Source: Spirogloea muscicola
Taxonomy: Eukaryota; Streptophyta; Zygnematophyceae; Spirogloeales; Spirogloeaceae
Length of the DNA: 64,000 nucleotides
Assembly: GCA_009602725.1 (NCBI GenBank)
Contig: WELB01000007.1
Location: 1,316,310 to 1,380,309 of the forward strand
Direction: 5' to 3'
The position numbers were made by a program, and so were the translations under genes. Shown here in pieces: positions 12,152 to 25,169 of this stretch (the stretch's first letter is position 1; each line of letters starts with the position of its first letter). Below the pieces are notes generated by a model. It had not been told where the DNA came from and searched no databases. It saw only the letters and a list, made by a program, of their open reading frames with translations.

Positions 12152-12665
12152 CTGAGAGAGAAGGCGCGCGGGGCGCATGAATTGAAAGGGAGGCCAATTC
12201 AACCCAATACATTGTTCAGGCAGAGTCGAGTGCAGACTAAACAAGGCTACATAATACGGAGACCTAATCTAAGGTACCTAAGATGACATTAGTACCCACG
12301 GGTGAGCACAAACAAATCTGACAAGCTAACTTGGGGAGCTGGAGCGCCGCCGCGAAAGCCGGAGGCCTGACTTAGAGCGCGCCCTGCACGTTGATGAAGA
12401 GCCAATGCTTGCGAGCGCTGCAAACTAAGCGAGAGCCGCATTCTATAATATGCAACTAAGGCCTGCGGAATGCTGGAGTGGCCCAAGCTGCCCCCCCGAC
12501 TTCGACGACGCGCATCGAACTACTGAGCGATCCATCCTCCCCCTGTTCTGACTTAGCATCTTCCGACCCCTTTGTAGCTGCTACACGCTTGTAGGCCCCT
12601 CCGAACCTTTGTCAATTCTGTTATTTCTTCTTTCATGCGCCCCGCGCGCCTTCTCTCTCTCTTAG
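12152..12665 (-). mobile_element. LINE-like retrotransposon 3' end (copy 3), flanked by inverted tails
   Basis: On the minus strand about 12290-12500 encodes a C-terminus very close to copy 2: YRMRLSLSLQRSQALALHQR and then SLSDLFVLTRGY with the stop at 12289-12291. The 3' tail runs down to about 12152 and contains GTATTGGGTTGAATTGGCCT and GCGCCCCGCGCGCCTTCTC. A second tail in the opposite orientation lies at 12633-12662, so the segment looks bounded by inverted GCGCCCCGCGCGCC sequences about 480 bp apart. It is 5'-truncated. Confidence 0.6.
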
Positions 12666-12890
12666 CGAGCGCGAGGGGGCCCAACAGACGGACGATAGCA
12701 GCCGACGCCGCACGATCTCAGCTGTCGGCTCGAACCCGGCCCCCGATCGGACGGCTTAACGCGGGCCTCCGCGAGCCCAGTTTCAGCGACTCAGCAAGGA
12801 GCGTAAAGCGCACCGACGACAATCCACAAGCCCCCGCCCCCCCCCGATCGCGAACCTATCAGCCAACGACATCTGGATACGTTCAAGAAC

Positions 12891-13082
12891 GACACGTGGA
12901 TGTAAGACGCGTGTCGCCTTGAAAGTGGCCTTCGGCAGCGGCCGCGTCAGCTATGGACACGCGGCGGTCAGTAATGAGCTCGCCAGGTCGAGGGCCCCGC
13001 CCGGACGTGGACACGTGGCGCGCCGCACTTGCTGGGCACGGACGGGCACAAGGAGGCGAAGGAGCGAGCGCCGCCTATATAG
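12891..13082 (+). promoter_or_regulatory. LEA promoter with ABRE, CE3-like element and TATA box
   Basis: In the 340 bp before the LEA start codon lie GACACGTGGA (12891-12900), ACGCGTGTCGCC (12907-12918), ACGTGG (13005-13010) and CACGTGGC (13012-13019), then TATATAG (13075-13081). ACGTGGC is the core of the plant ABA-response element, and ACGCGTGTC is the core of coupling element CE3 known from barley HVA1. Order and spacing fit an ABA or dehydration response complex, but function is inferred. A CCAAT lies at about 13101. Confidence 0.6.
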
Positions 13083-13128
13083 CGCTCAGCAACGAGTTAA
13101 CCAATGAAAGACTCTTTGTAGCTACACA

Positions 13129-13231: not shown

Positions 13232-14160
13232 ATGGCCTCCGAGGGCTACACCGCTGACACCAACCAGGCGATGAAGGACAAGGCCGAGCGTGCGCAGGAC
13301 AAGATTGACAACACCGTGGCTGACACCAAGGTACGGCAAGGCTCTTCCCACTGGCCCTGTTACTACCCGTCCCAGTGAATGACCATCTCACCTGGAAGAA
13401 GCTTAGCCAGGAGGAGAGTTTGAGAAATCGCAACTCTGTGGTCAGGCGACGTTGTATATAAAAGCTTTTGAAGCTGGCATCCTTTACTTGAGAGTGCCAT
13501 GGATAAGCGTCTCTCTGGGTACTACAGGCTGAGATGTCAAGCTGTTGAAGGTGGGACAATTTACCTTTTGAGTGCAATTGACAGTTGTCTTTCTGGACAC
13601 AACAGGCTGAGATGGCAGGGCATGAGCAGGCTGCTCAGGGCAACCTTCACGGGGGTGGTGCTGACCAGAACATCAAGGCCGACCATGCGAAGCAGAGCGC
13701 CGCTGTGAGCTTCGAGAACCAGCACTTTTATGCTCTACAGTGTAGCTTTAGTTGGCTTTGATGTGTAGCTTCACTTTGTCGCCATGGCTCAAAGAGACAA
13801 CAAGTGATGTGTGCCTCTGCTTCACAGCGTCAGACTCACCAGGCGCGAGCTATGTGCCATCAGTGCTGTGAATGTCACATAAATGGACAATGGATGCTAT
13901 CTAAGTAGCTTCACACCATCGTTCGTCAGGGCTTGGGAGAGCACGCAAAGGAGACTGCAGGACATACAGCTGGAGCTGTGAAGGAGGGCACAGCAAATGC
14001 TGCTGGCAAGACCGGGGCTGCTATTCAGGGCATTGGCGAGAAGATCACTCATGCAGCTCAGAACATGAAAGCCAAGGTCACTGGTCACCACGACCAAATG
14101 CATGATGATAAGAAGACTGGCACTGTAGATTCGTCTGTTGATGAAAGGATCTCATCGTAG
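13232..14160 (+). CDS. LEA-like (late embryogenesis abundant) stress protein
   Basis: Three exons, 13232-13330, 13606-13704 and 13930-14160, all phase 0, give 142 residues. The protein is hydrophilic and rich in Ala, Lys, Glu, Gly and Thr, with LEA-type phrases such as AMKDKAERAQDKIDNTVADT and HAKETAGHTAGAVKEGTANA. No signal peptide, membrane segment or catalytic motif is visible. It is expected to be disordered in solution and to protect proteins or membranes during drying, cold or salt, as group 3-type LEA proteins do. The first and second exons are the same length (99 nt). The promoter with ABRE- and CE3-like motifs supports stress regulation. The exact LEA subgroup is not settled. Confidence 0.8.
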
Positions 14161-21108: not shown

Positions 21109-22360
21109 ATGTCGGCCTGCATCACTGGCGGCTTCTTGGGGTGCACGGCCCTAAGCCCCGCCAAGGCGCCTCCTTGCCGTCGTGCACGCGCTGCCCGTCT
21201 GCGCCAGGCGGCGCCCGCCTCCCGCCTGCGGCAGTTGCCTCGCGCCTCCGCCGCCGACGTCATGTCGAAGCGCGGCCGCACGGAGAACGACAAGCCGGCG
21301 GCGCCGCCAGGCGGCCTGAAGACGGAGATGAAGGAGCTGGCGGCGGGCGGCATGGCCGTGTTGTATGGCACGCGTATCCCCAAGGACTACTTTGTCGTCA
21401 AGGGGTGCGGGGAGACCAACGAGGGCGGCGGCATCGACCCCTGGGAGACCGGCTCCTACGATCTGGCCCTCGAGGACGCTGGTGAGCTCGCGGCTTGCAG
21501 CAACTCGTGTAGTCGAGCAGCTGCTGCTTCTGTCAAGTGCGTGTGGCTTCAGCTCGCCACCTTTTGCTTCAGCAAGCTGAGGAGGCGCACTCACAATGGA
21601 CTCTACTACTCTGATGATTTTCACAAGCTCTCACAAGCGTTCACAAGCGTTCTGCAGGAGCCCTATCAAGAAGCAAATTTAGAACTCCGAACACACTTTG
21701 ACTTGTGCACGTCGCACAAGAAGGGTGCACGCAGATATGGAATGACGACTGTGACGCATTGTGTTGCATGGGTTCTTGCAGGTATTCATGAGTTCAACCT
21801 TGTCGCGTATACATCTGTCATACCACCAGAGGCGACCGAAATTTCGTTCGAGAAGGCCCAGAAATTCTTCCACCACGGCGCATGCCTGGAGACCATCATG
21901 GCCCAGATGAATGGCGCATTTGGCGACCGCATCACGGCAGGCGTTGCGCGGATGCACGTGAGTTGTCCTTATTGTGAAAGCGCACACCGAGCATAAGACA
22001 ATGTCATGGTGGAGTCCAAGTTCAAGCTGTGCTGTTGACGAGCCTCTTGAAAGTTTGCAGCAATTGCAGCACTGCATCTTGGCGCTTGTGCAGGTGACCA
22101 GGAAGAAGGACAACTACCACGTGGGAGGTTATGCGGCCGAGTACAAGGGCCACGCGAATGAAGAGCTAGCGTGCCAGATTCTGACGGAGGACCTTGACGG
22201 GATATTTGCCCGGCGGTACAGCGAGGATGAGTATGAGAAGTCTGATAAGGAGTTTACCATAGCCGTCAAGGAGGTGAACAAGAACTACGGCACTGTGCTA
22301 GCTGGGATCTGCTTCGTGACCTACCTTCTGCCCATCTATGCCGAGCAGGCCGACAACTGA
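21109..22360 (+). CDS. Pyruvoyl-dependent arginine decarboxylase (PvlArgDC family), probably organelle-targeted
   Basis: Catalyses arginine to agmatine plus CO2, using a pyruvoyl group made by self-cleavage of the chain. Exons 21109-21481, 21782-21957 and 22094-22360 join in frame to 271 residues. The first ~50 residues are rich in Ala, Arg, Pro and Ser (RRARAARLRQAAPASRLRQL) and look like a transit peptide. The fold begins near RIPKDYFVVKGCGETNEGG; FNLVAYTSVIPPEATEI carries the Thr-Ser pair where AaxB-type enzymes cleave, the Ser becoming the pyruvoyl; NYHVGGYAAEYKG is a conserved late motif. Family enzymes are usually archaeal or bacterial (for example chlamydial AaxB). The activity is inferred from these motifs; a shared leader with plastid polyamine synthesis is only a guess. 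Confidence 0.85.
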
Positions 22361-23326
22361 GGGCGCTTCTCTCAAGCAGGCGGTTGAGCTGAGTTCGTGC
22401 AGCTGCACAAGACATTCTCACAGCATGCAAGCCGGCAAGGCGAGGGCCGGCCACTGCACAATTTTGCTGCTCGGCCGAGTCTGGCACGTGAGCACGTCTC
22501 GCGGGCTGACATTCTTTTGGCAGTCCGCAACATGTAGCCAAGCAGGTGGCATTGCACCTCGCGACATCGCCCGTCAGTCCAGGGGAGTGGCCGACGTACA
22601 CTCTTCTGCAGTCTAGCAGCAGACAGCCTGCTCTGCCGGGGTGCCGGAGGCTGCGGTGGGATGCATTGGGGCTGAAAGAGCCATGAGGGTTGGGGAGCGG
22701 CCATTCCCTGGGAGGGGGGTAGCCGAGCGCGCGGGAAGGAAGGAGGGCGGGGGGTCCCTCACACCTTGCTCTGTTTTTTGGGCTGGCCTCTCACAAGCCA
22801 ATGCCTTTCAATGGATTGGAAGACCTGTTATCTTACTTGGGGGCTGCTGCCCCGCCGGCGTGCCAAGTCAGCAGAGGCCTCGCTGCGCGCCACGCGGCAC
22901 GGCCGCGCCGCGCTGGCCGCGCCGCGTGCCCGCCAGGCTCACGCCACGTGTCCCGGCCCTCCTCCCCCCCCCCCCGCGGAGGGGCAAGGGGGCGGAGGGC
23001 CGAGCATGAAGGCCCCAACTGTCAGTACGATCCGGCACGGGCTCAGATTCTTCCCATTTGGCCCCCGACAGCCTGCGGTTTTGACAAGTGAGCATCTTCC
23101 GAAAAGGGGGCGGGGGCTATGAAATGCCAGCACCCCGAAGGAATTGAACAAGTGTCCACAGGACCGAAAGAAAGGGTTGGGGAGACGAGCGATTAGCAGA
23201 CGAGCAAACCCCCTTTGCCGCTCATCCGTCTCGCCACTGCCGCCGCCGCCGCCGTCGCCGCTGCCTCCGCGACCGCCGCCGCGAGCGCNCGCCGCCGCCG
23301 CCGCCGCCGCCGCCAGGGCCGCCGCC
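22361..23326. other. Spacer and GC-rich promoter of the following gene
   Basis: 22361-22760 shows no gene. 22775-22800 holds a copy of the TTTTTTGGGCTGGC repeat. 23238-23326 is a long GCC/CCG run (one N at 23289) immediately before the start codon at 23327. No other gene is supported. Confidence 0.5.
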
Positions 23327-25169
23327 ATGTCGGGCGCCACGCTGGCGGCGGGGGCCAAGCCCATCCCGCCGAGGATCGGGGACCCGATGGTGGGCACCCG
23401 GCGGCCGCCGGACCAGATGGGCGGCCTCATGGGGTCGCTCACCTTCATGCAGCTCCAGATGATCTCCTTCATCGTCGTGCTCGCCGCCTCCGGCCTGGTG
23501 CCCATCGAGGACCTCCTCTTCTTCGCCGGCATCTCCGTCTACATCATCATCCTCTCGCGCCTCTTCTTCCCACCGGCCACTGACAACCCCGCGCCGCCCG
23601 TCTTCGAGGTGTCCTTCCCTTCCTCTGGTCACCGGAATGGGCGCCCCCTCCCCTGGCTCGGTGGTGCTCATCAGAGCACACTCAAACATGGCCTGTTGCC
23701 GGCGCTACTCTTAGTGGGCTGGCTGACTTGCTGGCTGGCTGGCTGTCAAGCGGCGTCACACCCGCTCGTGGCGGCACCCAGCCTCGTGGAGCGTTCTTGG
23801 TCCTGCTTGCTCAAGCCCGTCTCACCCGTCACCGTGTCTGCTCTGTGGCAGGGGAACCTGTTCTTCCGCGGTTATGTCTCTGTGGGAGCCATCGTTGGCC
23901 TCTTCCTCCCCATGGTGAGCGCTTGGAAGACTTCTCTGGGCCATGTCGTCTCTTGCGCAGCACTCGTTGATCATCCACCTCCGTTGCACAACACAGCACA
24001 GAAAGCCTGAGCTGATTGCACAGCTGGGTGCAAATGAGCGACGTGTTGCGCCAAAGCTGCCCTGGTTGAAACAGCTCTCCCAGATTGTGAATATGCTTGG
24101 GCAAGGAGGCTAGGAGGCTGCATAGAGCCAAGCCAACGATGCAAGAGCCCCTCCTGTCAATGCAGATGACGCCTGCTTGAGGACATACAATCAGGCATTC
24201 TGGTTGGTGTTCAAGTGACGTGTCAGAGCAGCAGCGTTGCCCGTGAAAGCCCCGTCAAGCAGCTCCTGTCTGGTGTCGCCTGCAGGCATATGTGCTGGGA
24301 GGCTTTACCAGGGGCGAGCAGAGGGCGGTAAAAGCGGCAACCCCGCCGCTTTTCTTACTTGCCTGCCAGGTCTGCACAGTGAGCTGCAGTTGACCAGCTT
24401 AGAGCAGAGCCACAATCCAGGCTGCTGCCATGTGGTAGTGGCCACCAATGGCTGGATGCACGGTCACACATGCCATTCTCTGTTATTGCTGTATCCATGG
24501 ATGATTTCATGAGTTTTCCTCACCTTCGCTTGCAGATTTTCACGGAGAATCTCATAAGCGGCCTCAGCATTTTCTCCTTACCCGTTCGCGCACTCGTACC
24601 AATGCTTTACAACACACGCCGCCTCTTCGCAATCTCTGAATGGGCCAAGCAGGCACGCTTCTCACTTCTTAGCAGTTGATCAAGCCACAAGCTTTGTCTC
24701 TTGGCGCGAGTTATGCGATATTCGAGTGCATGACACTTGGGTCTATGCTCCATAAATTTGGCACGTCAGCTCATGGTTACCAGCAACAAACGTCATAGGT
24801 CGTGGATACATGCACGAACAATAACACGTACTCCGCTGGCTCTTGCAGACCTTTGCACGGGATGTGCCAACCGGGCACCCAGTGAGCCCCGATGTGGGGT
24901 TCCCACTCTTTGGGCGTGCGCTGGCGCTTGCCAACCTGGTATTCTGGGCCTTCAACCTCTTCTGCTTCCTCATCCCCATGTTCCTGCCACGTGCTTTCCA
25001 GCGGCACTTTGAGCTGCAGCAGGAGGCTAGGGAGCAGAGCGCCAAGAGTGATGCCGAGCCCCGTCGTAACGACAATGGTCAATTGCCGGAGAAGAAGGGC
25101 TTTCTGGGTGGCTTCATGGGCAGCAGTGCCAGCACAGCCACTGACACTGATAAGATCAAATCAACTTAG
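23327..25169 (+). CDS. Multi-pass membrane protein, plant DUF7733-like
   Basis: Function unknown. Exons 23327-23608, 23852-23914, 24286-24369, 24536-24652 and 24849-25169 are all phase 0 and give 288 residues. Exon 1 ends with two hydrophobic segments (MISFIVVLAASGLVPIEDLL and ISVYIIILSRLFFP); further ones are SVGAIVGLFLPMAYVLGG (exons 2-3), PPLFLLACQ, and LANLVFWAFNLFCFLIPMFL (exon 5). The tail after residue 240 is hydrophilic. The fourth intron starts with GC rather than GT (CAG|GCACGC), the only donor that keeps the frame. It resembles plant proteins of about 280-300 residues with the same FRQVNAV/LASASG-like start, but that match is from memory. No partner is suggested by neighbours. Confidence 0.7.

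Follow-up and report, generated by a model that had tools for sequence, protein, structure and literature searches.

A dense array of ACGTG- and GCGTG-type sites stands upstream of a LEA-like gene in the alga Spirogloea muscicola, at a density that is not random and with conservation across three homeologs. Two other LEA promoters carry similar arrays, ACGTGGC doublets are in excess across the genome, and ABF-type bZIP genes are present. We think it probable that stress-activated ABF/AREB-type bZIPs read the site array on the LEA-like gene, most likely without abscisic acid (ABA). The analysis covered the window (the whole 64-kb stretch of DNA) and the genome assembly to which it belongs (153.1 Mb in 471 contigs). 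GRAS-domain genes, which are present in zygnematophytes and are not known from chlorophytes, are abundant in this assembly (92 exon matches); we had first suspected a chlorophyte, and these genes speak against that reading. Many of the genes that we examined occur as three diverged copies on separate contigs, and such triplicates amount to a built-in footprint of their promoters. Identical translations were obtained for the bZIP stretches on C241 and C252, which are perhaps an assembly duplicate.

A site array upstream of a LEA-like gene

The gene has three exons, delimited by GT-AG borders, open frame, and the alignment of three homeologs, and encodes a product of 142 amino acids (P0001). The protein (GRAVY of -0.89, 12% Gly, 19% Ala, no Cys, and no Trp) has the properties that we take to define hydrophilins, being Gly-rich, hydrophilic, and without Cys or Trp. 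It matched none of the Pfam LEA families at an E value of ≤10 and was absent among the LEA_4 matches of the genome. The gene had been labeled LEA in an earlier, sequence-only reading; since there is no Pfam LEA match, that label is unsupported and "LEA-like" is the accurate term. Near copies are found on C212 (95% in the last exon) and C11 (92%). More distant relatives form three tandem pairs on C8, C24, and C229 (41 to 57% in matched stretches), and one of these tandem copies has an internal stop codon. The features of the promoter and gene are as follows (C7 is the window copy).

12891 to 12899, plus strand: S1, ABRE/G-box GACACGTGG, identified by sequence; same letters in all three homeologs
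12907 to 12915, plus strand: S2, ACGCGTGTC, the CE3 9-mer; C212 identical to C7, last base C to T in C11
12941 to 12948, minus strand: S3, GCCGCGTC, ACGCGGC on the minus strand; kept in three homeologs
12956 to 12965, plus strand: S4, GACACGCGGC, whose minus strand carries the CE3 core GCGTGTC; core kept in three homeologs, first G to A in C11
13005 to 13009, plus strand: third ACGTG; ACGTC in both homeologs
13010 to 13019, plus strand: S5, ABRE/G-box GACACGTGGC; same letters in all three homeologs
13075 to 13082, plus strand: TATA box CTATATAG; reads CTATAAAG in C11
13232 to 13330, plus strand: exon 1 of the LEA-like gene
13606 to 13704, plus strand: exon 2 of the LEA-like gene
13930 to 14160, plus strand: exon 3 of the LEA-like gene, with the stop codon

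The ATG at 13232 places position 12891 at -341. The ABREs, the CE3 element, and the TATA box that the sequence-only reading had put ahead of this start are all there. It had counted two to three ACGTG ABREs, and all three are present, but the third (13005) is unconserved in both homeologs and was dropped. S3, which falls inside the conserved block GCCGCGTCAGC, and S4 are two further sites that had been overlooked. The proximal promoter thus holds two elements of the form ACGTGKC (S1 and S5, -341 to -213), and the CE3 9-mer (12907 to 12915) lies near an ABRE (12891 to 12899). The exact 9-mer is found in two of the three homeologs; in C11 it reads ACGCGTGTT, with the last base lost.

Five sites of ACGYGKC/ACACGYG fall within 130 bp, which was matched by none of 2,000 dinucleotide shuffles of positions 12601 to 13100. 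The concern that shuffled sequence might hold the motifs as frequently is thereby answered for this density. In 169 kb taken from elsewhere in this genome, no 130-bp stretch had more than three sites. Counted singly in the 64-kb window, neither ACGYGKC (24 found versus 21.8 expected) nor ACACGYG (11 versus 11.5) was enriched. GACACGYGK occurred five times versus 1.2 expected (2 of 100 shuffles reached five), with four of the five matches belonging to the array region. The signal is the clustering and conservation of sites, not single-word frequency.

We aligned the window promoter (C7) with its homeologs on C212 and C11. The array region is 83 to 86% identical pairwise, whereas in the 329 bp that lie farther upstream the identity is 42% (C7 and C212), 66% (C7 and C11), and 35% (C212 and C11). 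The ABRE-type elements are selectively conserved among the three homeologs: all 43 columns of the motif 7-mers are identical compared to 109 of 152 other columns (P = 5e-6 by a one-sided Fisher test), with the motifs taken from a single one of these sequences, in which losses stay hidden. We judge this reference-sequence bias to be too small to produce the difference between motifs and neighbors. With wider site windows (S2 and S3 displaced by one base), the counts were 44 of 47 versus 108 of 148 columns. All five cores are kept in both homeologous copies. The introns are likewise alignable across the three homeologs and are still similar, so part of the promoter conservation reflects youth.

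Elsewhere in the window, three further sites lie at 22892 to 22952 (ACGCGGC, ACGCGGC on the minus strand, and GCCACGTGTC with the palindrome CACGTG), some 375 to 435 bp upstream of the ATG start codon at 23327 in a gene for a DUF7733 membrane protein (Pfam, 250 bits). This gene is a possible further target. A spliced pyruvoyl-dependent arginine decarboxylase gene (Pfam PvlArgDC, 116 bits) occupies positions 21262 to 22360; its true start may lie farther upstream, at an in-frame ATG (21109). To our knowledge, this enzyme type is unusual for a green alga.

Other LEA promoters and motif pairs across the genome

The distant relatives on C8, C24, and C229 provide a second array. Six or seven sites lie between the LEA-like first copy of the tandem pair and a divergent LEA_4-type gene, and this array is kept in three homeologs (segments L022, L023, and L024; about 2100 to 2900 in gene orientation on C8 and C24). 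The LEA_4-type gene is repeat-rich, and its Pfam LEA_4 match (23.8 bits; E value of 4e-5) falls below the curated cutoff of 51.1. Identical columns made up 48 of 50 in the motifs and 135 of 202 elsewhere (P = 4e-6 by a one-sided Fisher test). The second tandem LEA-like copies have no cluster.

The third array belongs to the Em-type LEA_5 family (19 exon matches, counted as 12 genes), for which we inspected the upstream stretches of 10 of the 12 genes. The trio on C1, C10, and C190 has a cluster with GCCGCGTGTC (CE3 core) in all three copies and GACACGTGGC in two of them; 45 of 47 motif columns are identical versus 129 of 159 others (P = 0.009 by a one-sided Fisher test). In both of these further promoters, each of the three copies retains a cluster, apart from the loss of single sites. 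The remaining 7 of the 10 inspected LEA_5 genes had no cluster within about 1.2 to 1.9 kb before the first matched exon (about 0.5 kb for C32, where the contig ends). We also rejected the LEA_4 genes on C83, C279, and C164 as further targets, as there was no ACGTG cluster upstream of them. In view of these genes and the seven LEA_5 genes, a promoter plan common to LEA genes is unsupported, and the many LEA genes without an array are a point against an ABF stress module.

Of 19 LEA segments, 9 (three promoters in three copies each) reached a cluster threshold of at least four sites in 250 bp, compared to none of 32 background segments (146 kb). The background consisted mostly of 3-kb segments around exons of bZIP and GRAS genes, together with the remainder of the window, rather than of random promoters. 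Without the discovery family, the counts were 6 of 16 versus 0 of 32 (one-sided P = 6.5e-4), the copies not being independent. A count per promoter (2 of 6 versus 0 of 32) depends on the chosen LEA_5 grouping and carries little weight. The background initially comprised 37 segments; five (L054, L055, and L060 to L062) were removed because they had been picked for ABRE or ABRE-CE3 pairs, and two of these five attain the threshold. The loci on C99 and C157 entered the background counts only.

At the genome level, ACGTGGC occurred 18,481 times, compared to 15,794 times for the reversed control. Same-strand doublets 3 to 33 bp apart numbered 333 versus 46, where a simple expectation gives 34.6 for ACGTGGC and 25.3 for the control (about 9.6-fold versus 1.8-fold; the counts include homeologs and some palindromes more than once). 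This excess resembles that of Arabidopsis and rice, where ABRE-ABRE pairs under another definition are given, in the part of the source consulted, as 2.6-fold and 3.5-fold in excess of randomized promoters (PMC2000901). The pairing of ABRE and CE3 gave a different picture. A close pair was found 5 times versus 9 for the reversed control, and 3 of the 5 were copies of the window gene; a looser same-strand pair was found 62 times versus 35. Since the ABRE-CE3 doublets are only weakly in excess, a barley-type complex is unsupported as a rule, and we rejected CE3 as a fixed genome-wide partner of the ABRE. The HVA1-type pairing suggested by the sequence-only reading is thus not supported as a general plan.

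Several ABRE-rich loci were also observed. One apparent homeolog pair (C23:757356 and C1:275952; segments L060, 1953 to 1981, and L061, 2057 to 2085) has ABRE triplets, 10 to 12 bp apart, next to an ORF whose basic product contains an AGRPKK stretch (one ORF tried, no Pfam match). Such triplets adjoining ORFs with no recognized stress role (this pair inspected) are a further point against an ABF stress module. In L062 (C25:404300-409700), about 3 kb separates two blocks that resemble repeats, each dense in GCCACGTGGC and ACGTGTC, amid low-complexity sequence; C25:405120 looks repeat-like.

Candidate factors and rival explanations

Scanning the genome with the bZIP_1 profile gave 20 exon matches. 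The bZIP on C47 reads QRQKRMIKNRESAARSRARKQ, an intron, and AYTVELEAEVTQLKEENMRLLQA, with TLGEMTLEDFLVRAG upstream, which in our view resembles the conserved N-terminal ABF block. Those on C153, C193, and C102 read ERRQKRMIKNRESAARSRARKQ, an intron, and AYTVELEAEVTLLKEENMRLL (AYTVELEAEV). The group A signature, KNRESAARSRARKQ followed by AYT.ELEAE with an intron after RKQ, is found in C47 and in C153, C193, and C102. We take this basic region, together with an intron that separates RKQ from AYT, to be a hallmark of ABF/AREB factors (AREB1/ABFs). Judged by these sequence features, at least four ABF/AREB-type bZIP genes appear to be present. Extracts of two papers bear on ABFs in algae: a Mesotaenium ABF2 homologue is described as highly connected in a stress coexpression network (PMC10505561), and a 34-species survey reports no ABFs in algae, the five algae that it names being chlorophytes (PMC7731569). 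The Spirogloea genome also encodes GBF-like (C34, C23, and C1) and HY5-like (C68 and C217) bZIPs.

No ABA receptor was recovered. A tblastn search with PYR1 (a query with a full-length match to a PDB PYR1 entry) gave no match in the genome at an E value of ≤10, although a PYL that is split by introns or lies in a gap could escape such a search. The Pfam profile Polyketide_cyc2 gave three weak matches of 25.5 bits or less, compared to 43.9 bits for PYR1 itself. The stretches read of these three matches contained no SGLPA-type loop in frame, and we rejected the loci on C54, C350, and C214 as PYL candidates, reading them as generic START-like proteins. The PYL receptor that an HVA1-type ABA-response complex (ABRC) calls for was thus missing from the results of the genome searches. 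In the available portion of a study of zygnematophyte PYLs, which names five species and does not include Spirogloea muscicola among them, three of seven assayed PYLs drove the reporter in the absence of ABA, and the other four failed to do so (PMC12717121).

In the mechanism that we favor, the region from 12891 to 13082 would be the proximal promoter of a LEA-like stress-protein gene, with a dense ACGTG/GCGTG array before the TATA box. Osmotic or desiccation stress would activate ABF/AREB (group A) bZIPs, probably via SnRK2 kinases. These would occupy several sites of the array together and so turn on the window gene, along with two or more further LEA promoters. Since the genome searches recovered no ABA receptor, activation probably proceeds independently of ABA.

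The same sites could also be explained as a G-box array for bZIPs of the GBF type (group G) or the HY5 type, or for bHLH/PIF factors, which would make this a light- or day-cycle-regulated gene instead of a member of an ABF stress module. GBF-like and HY5-like bZIPs can bind CACGTG, both are encoded in the genome, and the palindrome lies inside S1 and S5. However, three of the five sites are GCGTG types rather than CACGTG and are also conserved, and the two other promoters with similar arrays are also LEA promoters. GCGTG-type sites reportedly suit ABF/TRAB1-type binding. We therefore consider a G-box array unlikely.

A full ABRC like that of land plants, with ABA induction via PYL and an obligatory coupling role for CE3, as in barley HVA1, would fit the exact CE3 9-mer that adjoins an ABRE in the window promoter, as well as the GCCGCGTGTC element that lies between ABREs in the LEA_5 promoter and is kept in three copies. 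It is very improbable, given that PYR1 found no counterpart, that the best Polyketide_cyc2 match is not PYL-like, and that ABRE-CE3 pairing is not clearly enriched genome-wide. Only slightly less improbable is a reading in which a CpG-rich promoter yielded the motifs as a by-product and recent genome triplication alone accounts for their conservation. The array does have a GC content of 66% and a CpG observed/expected ratio of 1.28, compared to 0.67 for the window, and introns can be aligned as well. Dinucleotide shuffles, however, retain the CpG content and never reach five sites, the motif columns are conserved above the neighboring columns in three separate promoters, and the doublet excess far outstrips that of the reversed control.

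Relation to the ABA response of land plants

The array resembles the ABRE/ABRC promoters of land plants in its ACGTGGC-type elements, its CE3 9-mer, its proximal position (-341 to -213), its several sites, and its LEA-type target. It differs in that the host is an alga, no PYL was found, and ABRE-CE3 pairs are only weakly in excess across the genome. The order of elements also differs: in the window promoter the ABRE comes first and CE3 follows 7 bp after it, whereas in barley HVA1 CE3 precedes the ABRE. The cluster on C8, C24, and C229 (the window gene is not included here) lies between divergent genes, as do the CACGTG boxes and CE3 of Arabidopsis At3g03150-At3g03160 in the portion of the report available (PMC4222868). 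Unlike the Arabidopsis pair as given there, the algal pair consists of a LEA-like and a LEA_4-type gene, and the element is GCGTGGC, not GCGTGTC. The suggestion of an early occurrence of the land-plant promoter plan stands in part. It is supported by ABREs on LEA-type genes, the array in three copies, similar clusters at two other LEA promoters, and ABF/AREB-type genes, but a CE3-dependent complex driven by ABA is unsupported.

ABA-pathway proteins are known in zygnematophytes. LEA4, LEA5, and LEA2 proteins have been recorded from streptophyte algae, according to an excerpt of PMC7289719. Among the open-access PMC matches listed, we found no promoter-level evidence for ABREs from an alga, and by word count ABRE as a whole word is absent from the text obtained of two streptophyte stress papers (PMC12185132 and PMC12820192). 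It is possible, and we suggest it tentatively, that the output of ABF-type bZIPs and clustered ABRE/CE3-type sites on LEA genes predates control by ABA and works without PYL, with ABA having been added later. Arrays on three LEA promoters in a genome with no detectable PYL make this output-before-receptor idea testable. The question bears on the origin of the ABA drought response, that is, whether the receptor or the gene switches came first. If the idea is true, ABA became a later input to a desiccation regulon that already existed in the algal relatives of land plants.
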